NCBI RefSeq assembly: GCF_004015795.1
Contig: NZ_ML137218.1
Coordinates: forward strand, 2,081,368 to 2,145,367
Reading direction: 5' to 3'
DNA length: 64,000 nt
From: Falsirhodobacter deserti
GTDB lineage: Bacteria; Pseudomonadota; Alphaproteobacteria; Rhodobacterales; Rhodobacteraceae
The notes beneath the pieces were generated by a model that was given only the letters and a program-made list of their open reading frames with translations, did not search any database and was not told the origin of the DNA. The translations under genes were made by a program, and so were the position numbers. Shown piece by piece: positions 34,120 to 35,466 of the stretch; the first letter of the stretch is position 1, and each line of letters starts with the position of its first letter.

Positions 34120-34181
34120 TCCTTTTGCGCTATACGCGCTGCCCTCAGGTTCCTCCGCCACCCTGCCAAAACGGATCATCC

Positions 34182-34805
34182 ATGACGCGCGCACATCTTC
34201 CCTTCATCCTTGCGATGGCCGCAACGGTCGTCGCTTCGAACATCCTCGTGCAGGTCCGCTTCGGCGACTGGCTGACATGGGGAGCCTTCACCTATCCGCT
34301 GGCCTTTCTTGCCAATGACATCACCAACCGCATCTATGGCGCTCGTGCCGCGCGGCAGGTCGTGATCGCGGGCTTCGTCACCGGCCTTGCCTGCTCGCTC
34401 GTCGGAACGCAGATCCCGGGGGAGTTTGGCCCCCTTGTCACCTTCCGCGTGGCGCTTGCCTCTGCCGCGGCGTTTCTTGTGTCGCAGCTTCTGGACGTGT
34501 TCGTGTTCGACCGGCTGCGCGGTGCTGCATGGTGGCGCGCGCCTGCCGCCTCCACCCTGCTGGGCGCTTCGCTGGATACGGCCCTGTTCTTCAGTATCGC
34601 CTTTTCGGGCTGGCTGGTCTTCCTGAACCCGGCCGAAGATGTGGCATGGGCGAATGAAGGCGTGCCGCTGCTTGGAAGCGGGCCTGTGATGGCGCTTTGG
34701 ATCTCGCTCGCCGCAGCCGACTGGTGCGTAAAAATCGGGCTGGCAATCGTTGCCCTTCTGCCATTCCGCCTGATCGTCAGGCGGATGACAGCATCTGTTG
34801 CGTGA
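34182..34805 (+). CDS. yhhQ: Queuosine precursor transporter of the YhhQ/VUT family
   Basis: A 207-residue inner-membrane protein with about six hydrophobic segments and the VUT-family motif TYPLAFLANDITNRIYG. YhhQ imports 7-cyano-7-deazaguanine for queuosine in tRNA. ATG at 34182 starts the normal N terminus (MTRAHLPF). I looked for a preQ1 riboswitch in the 62 bases upstream and could not support one. Confidence 0.88.
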   Translation: MTRAHLPFILAMAATVVASNILVQVRFGDWLTWGAFTYPLAFLANDITNRIYGARAARQVVIAGFVTGLACSLVGTQIPGEFGPLVTFRVALASAAAFLVSQLLDVFVFDRLRGAAWWRAPAASTLLGASLDTALFFSIAFSGWLVFLNPAEDVAWANEGVPLLGSGPVMALWISLAAADWCVKIGLAIVALLPFRLIVRRMTASVA

Positions 34806-34861
34806 TGGGCGTTGACATCCACCACATCCGTGCCAACCTCCACTGTATCGGCAACACATTT

Positions 34862-34878
34862 GAAAGGAGGTGATCCAG
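34862..34878 (+). promoter_or_regulatory. Extended Shine-Dalgarno: 17 bases complementary to the 16S rRNA 3' end
   Basis: GAAAGGAGGTGATCCAG is the exact complement of the usual alphaproteobacterial 16S 3' end (CTGGATCACCTCCTTTC). Ordinary sites match 4-7 bases. GGAGG is 7 bases before the GTG of a short open frame (34878-34934). Confidence 0.6.
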
Positions 34879-34934
34879 TGTCTAGAGTGATATTGGAGAG
34901 AGGTGTCGGGACAGTCGGGAGGATCGACGGCTAA
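34878..34934 (+). CDS. Putative 18-codon leader ORF upstream of arfB
   Basis: GTG TCT AGA ... GAC GGC TAA encodes 18 residues, VSRVILERGVGTVGRIDG. It is preceded by the 17-base 16S-complementary site. Its stop codon is inside an 8-bp hairpin: GCTAAGGG (34930-34937) with CCCTTGGC (34942-34949), loop CAGC, one G-U pair. A second, longer hairpin follows before arfB. The arrangement resembles a translational or transcriptional attenuator. I do not recognise the peptide. That it is translated is inferred only from the strong site. Confidence 0.45.
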   Translation: MSRVILERGVGTVGRIDG

Positions 34935-35003
34935 GGGCAGCCCCTTGGCGGAAGACCAACTGATTGGGATGATTCCTAACTGGCTCATCTCCTTGGATCT
35001 CGG

Positions 35004-35031
35004 AAAGGGTCGTCGGCCGTGGCGGCCCTTT
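35004..35031 (+). promoter_or_regulatory. Terminator-like hairpin in the arfB leader
   Basis: AAAGGGTCGTC (35004-35014) pairs along 11 positions with GGCGGCCCTTT (35021-35031), including two G-U pairs, around a 6-base loop. It is followed by CTCTATG rather than a full U tract. It ends 12 bases before the arfB ATG, occupying the place where a ribosome-binding site would be. Confidence 0.55.
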
Positions 35032-35043
35032 CTCTATGAAATC

Positions 35044-35466
35044 ATGCTGAACATAAACGAAACCATCACCATCGCCGACTGGGAACTGACGGAAAGCTTC
35101 ATCCGCGCCTCCGGCCCCGGCGGGCAGAATGTCAACAAGGTCGCCACCGCGGTGGAGCTTCGCTTCGAGGCAGAGCGTTCGCCCAATCTCGCAGGGCCGG
35201 TGAAGACGCGGCTGAAGCGACTTGCGGGCCGCCGCTGGACGCAGGACGGCGCGCTGATTCTTCAGGTCGATGAAACCCGCAGCCAAGCGCGCAACCGCGA
35301 AATCGCGCGGGAGCGGCTGGCCGAACTGATCCGCAAGGCACTTGTCGCGCCCAAACGTCGCATCCCCACAAAGCCCACTCTTGGCAGCCAGCGCCGCCGC
35401 CTTGCCGCCAAGGCCAACCGGTCGCAGATCAAGGCCGGACGCGGCACGATCACCGATACCGACTGA
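35044..35466 (+). CDS. arfB: Alternative ribosome-rescue factor ArfB (YaeJ)
   Basis: A 140-residue peptidyl-tRNA hydrolase that frees ribosomes stalled at mRNA ends. The catalytic GGQ is at residues 26-28 (SGPGGQNVNKVATAVELRF), and the basic tail that enters the mRNA channel is present (PKRRIPTKPTLGSQRRRLAAKANRSQIKAGRG). No normal ribosome-binding site precedes ATG 35044. Instead there is a hairpin and a short leader ORF, so initiation may be coupled or regulated. The frame is open further upstream (to 34903) but lacks family-like sequence there. Confidence 0.93.
   Translation: MLNINETITIADWELTESFIRASGPGGQNVNKVATAVELRFEAERSPNLAGPVKTRLKRLAGRRWTQDGALILQVDETRSQARNREIARERLAELIRKALVAPKRRIPTKPTLGSQRRRLAAKANRSQIKAGRGTITDTD

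Follow-up and report, generated by a model that had tools for sequence, protein, structure and literature searches.

The window analysed here, a 64,000-nt stretch of Falsirhodobacter deserti DNA, contains just upstream of arfB what looks like a stand-alone RNA of about 175–185 nt with its own -35 box and terminator, in which an extended Shine-Dalgarno (SD) sequence complementary to the 3' end of 16S rRNA precedes an 18-codon open reading frame (ORF). Our preferred reading, with a probability of slightly more than one half (about 0.52), has two parts that are taken jointly. The RNA would be a divergent relative, namely the Rhodobacteraceae version, of the alphaproteobacterial CC2171 RNA (RF01867), which Rfam lists as a Caulobacter small RNA (sRNA), and its role would be that of a ribosome-gated mini-mRNA/sRNA, opened by pairing with the 30S subunit, which senses or captures free 30S subunits. 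Sequence comparison supports conservation of the RNA, of the start, stop and length of its ORF, of a long-range helix, P1 (three clades), and of an internal 16S mimic (several clades), as well as a compensatory change (one clade). The features of the region are as follows.

34125..34805, plus strand: upstream gene of a Vut_1-type transporter (Pfam PF02592, 1.7e-28)
34812..34817, plus strand: -35-like box TTGACA, 50 nt 5' of the anti-16S element
34854..35037, plus strand: candidate small RNA (5' end approximate, 3' end at the terminator tail; from cmscan and the architecture kept in relatives)
34862..34878, plus strand: anti-16S element, or extended Shine-Dalgarno, GAAAGGAGGTGATCCAG (pairing with the 16S tail predicted at -32.2 kcal/mol)
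34878..34934, plus strand: 18-codon ORF VSRVILERGVGTVGRIDG (GTG 34878–34880, TAA 34932–34934)
34895..34911, plus strand: P1 5' strand (ORF codons 6–12), predicted to pair with 34974–34992 in the tail-open fold
34928..34951, plus strand: stop-codon hairpin, present in both predicted folds (minimum-energy and tail-open)
34974..35001, plus strand: putative exchange strand, i.e., the P1 3' strand including the 16S mimic (from predicted folds and shuffles)
34985..34994, plus strand: 16S mimic TCATCTCCTT, predicted alternative partner of anti-16S bases 34864–34873
35002..35037, plus strand: predicted intrinsic terminator, a 14-bp stem (35002–35033) with a T-rich tail (from the fold and the terminator score)
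35044..35466, plus strand: arfB, RF-1 domain (Pfam PF00472, 9.3e-21)

The predicted fold of the window RNA was more stable than all of 200 dinucleotide shuffles (z -4.8). A preliminary description of this region had noted a GTG-started 18-codon ORF with its stop codon inside a hairpin, and this was borne out, the TAA lying within the predicted hairpin. It had also placed a second hairpin where arfB should have its ribosome-binding site. That hairpin is present; its T-rich tail, however, points to an intrinsic terminator and not to a device masking the ribosome-binding site.

The 17-base match to the 16S 3' end reported in the same description was confirmed, GAAAGGAGGTGATCCAG being complementary to CTGGATCACCTCCTTTC. 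The 16S end was taken from named plasmid records of Alphaproteobacteria and not from the own genome; a 53-nt query ending in GGCTGGATCACCTCCTTTCT showed 53/53 identity among the matches listed (25 of 535 records), which include Rhodobacter, Paracoccus, Rhizobium, Azospirillum and Sphingomonas. The own 16S 3' end was not found in the window's assembly. The 16S 3'-end pattern was present in one of 31 assemblies (the own and 30 relatives), where rRNA genes appear to be absent or masked.

According to the predicted pairing energies, a normal AAGGAGG yields about -10 kcal/mol versus -32 kcal/mol for the extended element, which could base-pair with practically all of the single-stranded 16S 3' tail. 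The 15-mer core of the element has a single site in the own assembly at ≤1 mismatch. Among the covariance-model loci, 45 of 46 were located; the perfect 15-mer is found in 34 of these and is absent from 11, and AAAGGAGGTG occurs in all 45, the locating script having required GGAGG or GGAAG plus few mismatches. Two loci of the window's own family (L014 and L213) retain just 11 bases, GAAAGGAGGTG, followed by an altered spacer. The 17-base complementarity and its conservation in relatives support the unusually strong ribosome-binding site, and also the alternative, raised earlier, of an anti-16S RNA. In this alternative, the RNA is an antisense or decoy RNA to 16S rRNA that serves as a ribosome sponge, a hibernation aid or a guide for 16S 3'-end maturation, and its translation is incidental. 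The pairing energy and the single genomic site agree with this, as does the reach of the complementarity, which stops one base before the final T of the 53-nt query (the opposite base is A in 8% only). Such a role is nevertheless quite unlikely, as it leaves unexplained the conserved start and stop codons, the ORF length and the GGAGG-to-start spacing, which is an ordinary 7 nt.

Prolonged SD pairing has a precedent in S. aureus, in which, according to the available part of a cryo-EM report, the 70S initiation complex accommodates pairing that continues in the direction of the start codon and, on the 16S tail, upstream of CCUCC (PMC13009471). Such pairing is sterically possible in S. aureus at least. 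The case described there concerns two extra pairs in an ordinary mRNA, whereas the window element offers 15–17 continuous predicted pairs in a stand-alone RNA.

The cmscan analysis with RF01867 gave 28.9 bits for the window over the full model length (E 2e-4), far under the gathering cut-off of 75 bits, which was exceeded in one of 31 relatives and in 8 of 241 class genomes. The window RNA shares with CC2171 the identical 5' tail GAAAGGAGGUGAUCCAGUGUCU, a terminator-like terminal hairpin and a similar length. It may also share the long-range helix, but the columns of the RF01867 5' helix are deleted in the alignment of the window. At E ≤ 0.1, the model matched 25 of 31 relatives but also five of the 14 well-known control genomes, of which four were not Caulobacter; at E ≤ 0.001, it matched 55 of 241 class genomes, with Caulobacter alone among the controls. 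Accounts of CC2171, in their available portions, present it as an sRNA only and do not describe 16S complementarity, a mini-ORF or an internal mimic. A search of the open-access literature found no reported function of CC2171 or RF01867, and in the open-access literature on anti-16S sRNAs and extended SDs nothing was recognised as describing the window RNA. In the available part of a Mesorhizobium study, the relative MH_s33 is tabled with a transcribed region, MH_s6 being alone in the set without RNA-seq products (PMC5596092).

The pattern GAAAGGAGGTGATCCNRTG was detected at ≤1 mismatch in 98 of 387 class genomes. In a sample of the phylum, the core pattern occurred in 66 of 113 Alphaproteobacteria versus none of 186 other Pseudomonadota, and the backward control gave one hit in 299. 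Named genomes contained at least 119 stretches with the pattern; 77 of the 80 titled ones are alphaproteobacterial by name and three are labelled 'Proteobacteria bacterium'. By name, the matches listed belong to Sphingomonadales, Rhizobiales, Rhodobacterales, Caulobacterales and Rhodospirillales-type orders. From 217 sequences, 214 loci were located and 196 remained after the removal of exact duplicates and loci cut by contig ends; locus L021, which is the window itself again, was dropped before the counts. An accidental strong SD beside two hairpins, or an annotation artefact, would be in keeping with the number of three-mismatch look-alikes of the 15-mer within the window, which is close to chance (4 vs. 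1.93 expected). This explanation is hardly credible and already refuted by the comparative data, given the recurrence throughout the class, the absence from the 186 other genomes and the conserved -35 box, terminator, ORF length and P1.

All 35 loci analysed from the window's own family, chosen without regard to ORF length, have an ORF of exactly 18 codons; the 'rhodo' group was defined partly by an 18-codon ORF, and therefore the length claim rests on these 35 loci. L014 and L213 were missed by the main script and restored to this count by a looser one. The start codons are GTG in 32, ATG in two and TTG in one, the locating script itself having required ATG, GTG or TTG near the start, and the stop codons are TAG in 16, TGA in 11 and TAA in 8. 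TGG was never seen at the stop position, versus about five cases expected under free variation (P about 0.004, relatedness ignored; 35 loci). All 45 located covariance-model loci start with GTG (25) or ATG (20), where the script had demanded TG at the start place; loci L048–L166 had been selected with a pattern that includes the start codon, and the evidence for start conservation therefore comes from the covariance-model and family loci. Across 189 unique RNAs, the ORF lengths were 14–39 codons, with 188 within 14–36, a range reached by 32% of shuffles and by 35–41% of shifted frames. This length test left out L119, L172, L173 and L176 (56–59 codons) and three loci in which fewer than 330 nt of sequence remained.

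The pN/pS ratio of the whole ORF was 0.85 in Rhodobacteraceae (codons 2–18), 1.24 in Sphingomonadales and 1.16 in Rhizobiaceae. In the first two clades, shifted frames gave 0.63–0.77, i.e., the true frame was no lower, and on these ratios the ORF does not resemble a peptide or residue sensor. There may be weak peptide constraint in Rhodobacteraceae, because the lowest sub-range in this family, codons 4–12, had a pN/pS of 0.68. Of the properties expected of a dual-function sRNA, a kept start, stop and length were found, and purifying selection on amino acids was not detected over the whole ORF in the three clades. The comparison suggests selection on the start, stop and length of the ORF, and not clearly on the peptide, which would fit an ORF that serves as a ribosome track and not as a message. 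The mini-ORF of the preliminary description is thus conserved as regards its start, stop and length, but its peptide is without clear conservation.

A small mRNA for a functional micropeptide, in which the extreme Shine-Dalgarno means high translation only, could account for the kept start, length and stop, for the Rhizobiaceae ORF length differing by one whole codon, for a recognisable consensus within clades (e.g., MSRVILERGVGT) and for the lower ratio at codons 4–12. We regard it as unlikely in view of the whole-ORF ratios of 0.85–1.24 in three clades, which speak against a functional peptide as the main driver; in addition, the conserved codons fall in the P1 strand and the peptides are unalike between clades (by eye). 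In the available part of a 2014 Caulobacter study, the intergenic regions yielding most non-coding RNAs were untranslated, and two previously predicted non-coding RNAs were translated (PMC4117421). The window RNA resembles rnTrpL/peTrpL of Sinorhizobium meliloti, a short alphaproteobacterial RNA with a 14-codon ORF that arises from transcription attenuation, as described in the portions available (PMC10117765, PMC7298713). However, trpL is leaderless and precedes trpE (PMC10117765), whereas the window RNA has a maximal SD, no conserved downstream gene and no clear peptide constraint.

In the predicted minimum-energy fold of the window RNA (-83.5 kcal/mol), bases 34864–34873 pair with 34985–34994 and the GTG lies in a hairpin. 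With the tail held open, at a predicted cost of 15.2 kcal/mol, the same 3' strand forms P1 with the ORF codons. P1 is a long-range helix between the ORF codons (from about codon 2–4) and the strand just before the terminator; it was analysed in RNAs with a scripted terminator at 120–230 nt. When the partners were permuted, pairing as good was obtained in 14 of 5000 permutations in Rhodobacteraceae and in none of 5000 in two other clades; in Sphingomonadales, where the helix hardly varies, the number was 2072 of 5000. In 48 CC2171-like sequences, 80.1% of the P1 cells were paired versus 73.9% after shuffling, the covariation score exceeded that of 500 of 500 shuffles, and changes on both sides numbered 46 versus 22.0. 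Pairs showing a change on both sides numbered 10 versus 7.7 (23 of 500 shuffles were as high), and slid versions of P1 paired in 30–55% of cells only. The short basal P1 of Rhodobacteraceae showed no covariation in within-clade swaps, 1309 of 2000 permutations doing equally well; a probable reason is that tracts of purines and pyrimidines can pair in most arrangements.

The internal mimic and the opening cost were assessed in RNAs with a scripted terminator at 130–225 nt. Complementarity between body and tail reached the top 5% of the shuffle distribution in 28 of 46 Rhodobacteraceae-type RNAs, compared with 1 of 46 for the reversed tail used as a control, and in 11 of 31 Mesorhizobium-like and other RNAs (control, 2). 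The signal was weaker in CC2171-like RNAs (17 of 48; control, 7 of 48) and not clear in Bradyrhizobium (2 of 7; control, 0), and none was seen in Sphingomonadales (0 of 24; control, 4 of 24). These predictions suggest that an internal mimic can hide the tail in several clades, although not class-wide. In all 156 RNAs, nested folds, pseudoknots being ignored, gave a tail-opening cost lower than the energy of pairing with 16S. The median cost was 11.4 kcal/mol in Rhodobacteraceae (17.2 with the first 15 nt after the start) and 12.3 in Bradyrhizobium, and in other clades it was 4.8–7.1, affordable for a normal Shine-Dalgarno, or 10.9–13.3 when these first 15 nt were included; on modelled energies, the argument is strong only in Rhodobacteraceae and Bradyrhizobium. 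The mimic strand of the window RNA bears a CUCC(U) anti-SD-like signature, as do SisA-D of Caulobacter, whose shared 10-mer with this signature is thought, according to the available part of the source, to pair with mRNA targets (PMC12559287). The window mimic differs in being complementary to its own tail, and any release onto targets is speculative.

The strongest individual evidence for a hidden tail comes from Rhizobiaceae (a label inferred from likeness to named Mesorhizobium loci), where an insertion in the tail is matched by the mimic, which on sequence comparison is a compensatory change. The sequence GAAAGGAAGGTGATCC followed by a start codon, or a one-mismatch variant of it, was found in 18 of 121 Rhizobiaceae genomes, the 18 representing 16 genera. 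Its tail is the standard one plus one base and would form a bulge against the standard 16S end. A doubled-T element lies 1–6 nt after the stop codon in 18 of 18 of these RNAs (CCTTCC in 16, TCTTCC in two), and in 18 of 19 RNAs, the nineteenth being L222, it favours the own tail over the standard tail (means -15.0 vs. -10.9). The exception is L243, in which T replaces the inserted A with no matching change of the mimic. A listed Rhizobium record, not known to carry the variant RNA, keeps the standard 16S end, so that the mimic seems to follow the tail and not the ribosome. The compensated insertion may go back to a single event whose outcome was inherited by the 16 genera.

A TTGACA box (≤1 mismatch) precedes the anti-16S element by 47–50 nt in 37 of 47 Rhodobacteraceae-type loci and by 40–72 nt in 41 of 47, the random expectation over the latter range being about 0.15 per sequence; in other clades the box was present at 40–72 nt in 4 of 32, 13 of 51, 9 of 33 and 3 of 7. 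A hairpin with a T-rich tail was detected by a lax script in 169 of 170 RNAs; the clade medians for its end lie 156–191 nt past the element, and the terminator score exceeded that of the shuffle in 78 of 80 loci sampled from four clades.

In the window, the arfB ATG (35044) lies 5 nt past the scripted terminator tail. The preliminary description had read the RNA as an attenuator-like leader that could couple rescue demand to arfB expression. As a cis leader or attenuator, it would let ribosome occupancy of the mini-ORF alter read-through of the terminator and so couple the ribosome state to the supply of the rescue factor. A tblastn search with the window's proteins placed arfB no more than 450 nt downstream, on the same strand, in 33 of 47 Rhodobacteraceae-type loci; in 8 of these 33, including the window, it starts 3–9 nt after the terminator tail, a gap that leaves scant space for a second promoter. 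The RNA nevertheless persists in the remaining 14 loci, with arfB at 740–1135 nt in four, not found within reach in nine and the contig cut in one. Downstream arfB is absent from all 149 remaining unique loci, in one of which it lies upstream on the opposite strand; the RNA is kept in all of them, contrary to the expectation of conservation only where arfB follows. Genes downstream of the RNA in these clades are often on the opposite strand: in the 131 of the 149 loci covered by crude ORF calling, the next gene was on the opposite strand in 66, on the same strand in 51 and not found within 600 nt in 14. The mini-ORF and the structure noted earlier are conserved, but their existence as an arfB leader is not supported. 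On the neighbour counts across clades, attenuation of arfB is rejected as the main function, and we consider a cis leader very unlikely. On the sequence evidence, arfB is a lineage-specific neighbour, possibly reached by terminator read-through; a local effect of this kind is possible because of the 3–9-nt gap in 8 of the 33 loci.

By eye, no close Shine-Dalgarno precedes arfB in the window (35030–35050), and few relatives show a candidate; in several genera, the arfB start codon comes directly after the terminator of the small RNA. The Vut_1 transporter gene lies upstream in 43 of 47 Rhodobacteraceae-type loci, including some in which arfB was not found. We take Vut_1 to be a putative vitamin uptake protein (Pfam), presumably for transport of a queuosine precursor.

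From these data we infer transcription from the -35-box promoter, 30S binding, translation of the ORF and switching between folds. For the ribosome-gated RNA that we prefer, the closed state would be one in which the internal 16S mimic pairs with the tail, and in the window the start codon would also be within a hairpin. A free 30S subunit would invade the tail by extended pairing with its 16S rRNA and so open the RNA. The predicted opening cost of about 15 kcal/mol exceeds what a normal SD provides (about -10) yet is less than the extended pairing (-32), so that, at least in Rhodobacteraceae, invasion by a 30S subunit could succeed with the extended element but not with an ordinary SD. In the opened RNA, the short ORF would be translated and the long P1 helix broken or remade; every passage of a ribosome would unwind P1 and end at a fixed place. 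Candidate outputs are ribosome trapping, a released anti-Shine-Dalgarno-like strand and RNA stability, and in Rhodobacteraceae perhaps also read-through into arfB. A more specific and doubtful version, which we put forward tentatively, is a 'ribosome riboswitch': the ligand would be the free 30S subunit, recognised through hybridisation with its entire 16S 3' tail, the ORF would serve as an occupancy timer that yields no useful peptide, and the freed anti-SD-like strand or the stabilised RNA would, at times of plentiful idle ribosomes, retune the translation of other mRNAs.

To our knowledge, the means by which bacteria sense idle ribosomes is an open question. An RNA that is kept across many alphaproteobacterial families and could pair with nearly the whole 16S tail, and whose ORF appears to be selected for its start and stop but not clearly for its content, hints at direct RNA sensing of ribosome availability and would provide a testable candidate in the easily cultured model strains of Caulobacter, Rhodobacter and Sinorhizobium. 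The proposed role would assign a function to RF01867, with a range wider than the cut-off reports. It would also provide an example of an extreme SD in a class whose model organism Caulobacter largely dispenses with SDs, only 24.6% of coding sequences there being preceded by one according to the available part of the 2014 study (PMC4117421).

No match to the window RNA was obtained in plasmids or phages. The 21-base pattern was present in six viral contigs, and five of these (L247–L250 and L252, from IMG/VR) resemble copies of the RNA by eye. In L248, L250 and L252 the copy lies near one end of the viral sequence examined; viral copies so placed are possibly host sequence at prophage borders, or mark an integration site by the RNA gene. 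In the sixth contig (L251:10075–10095), a perfect 15-mer and an ATG precede an ORF of about 70 codons unlike the window RNA, which may represent phage use of a maximal Shine-Dalgarno. In the Azospirillum-type loci L119, L172, L173 and L176, the same or nearly the same anti-16S element stands directly before the 56–59-codon ORF, the start of which (e.g., MSHGASPVVAALFGLAALLTAGIANA) resembles a signal peptide; this appears to be a different small gene, perhaps one that has captured the element.
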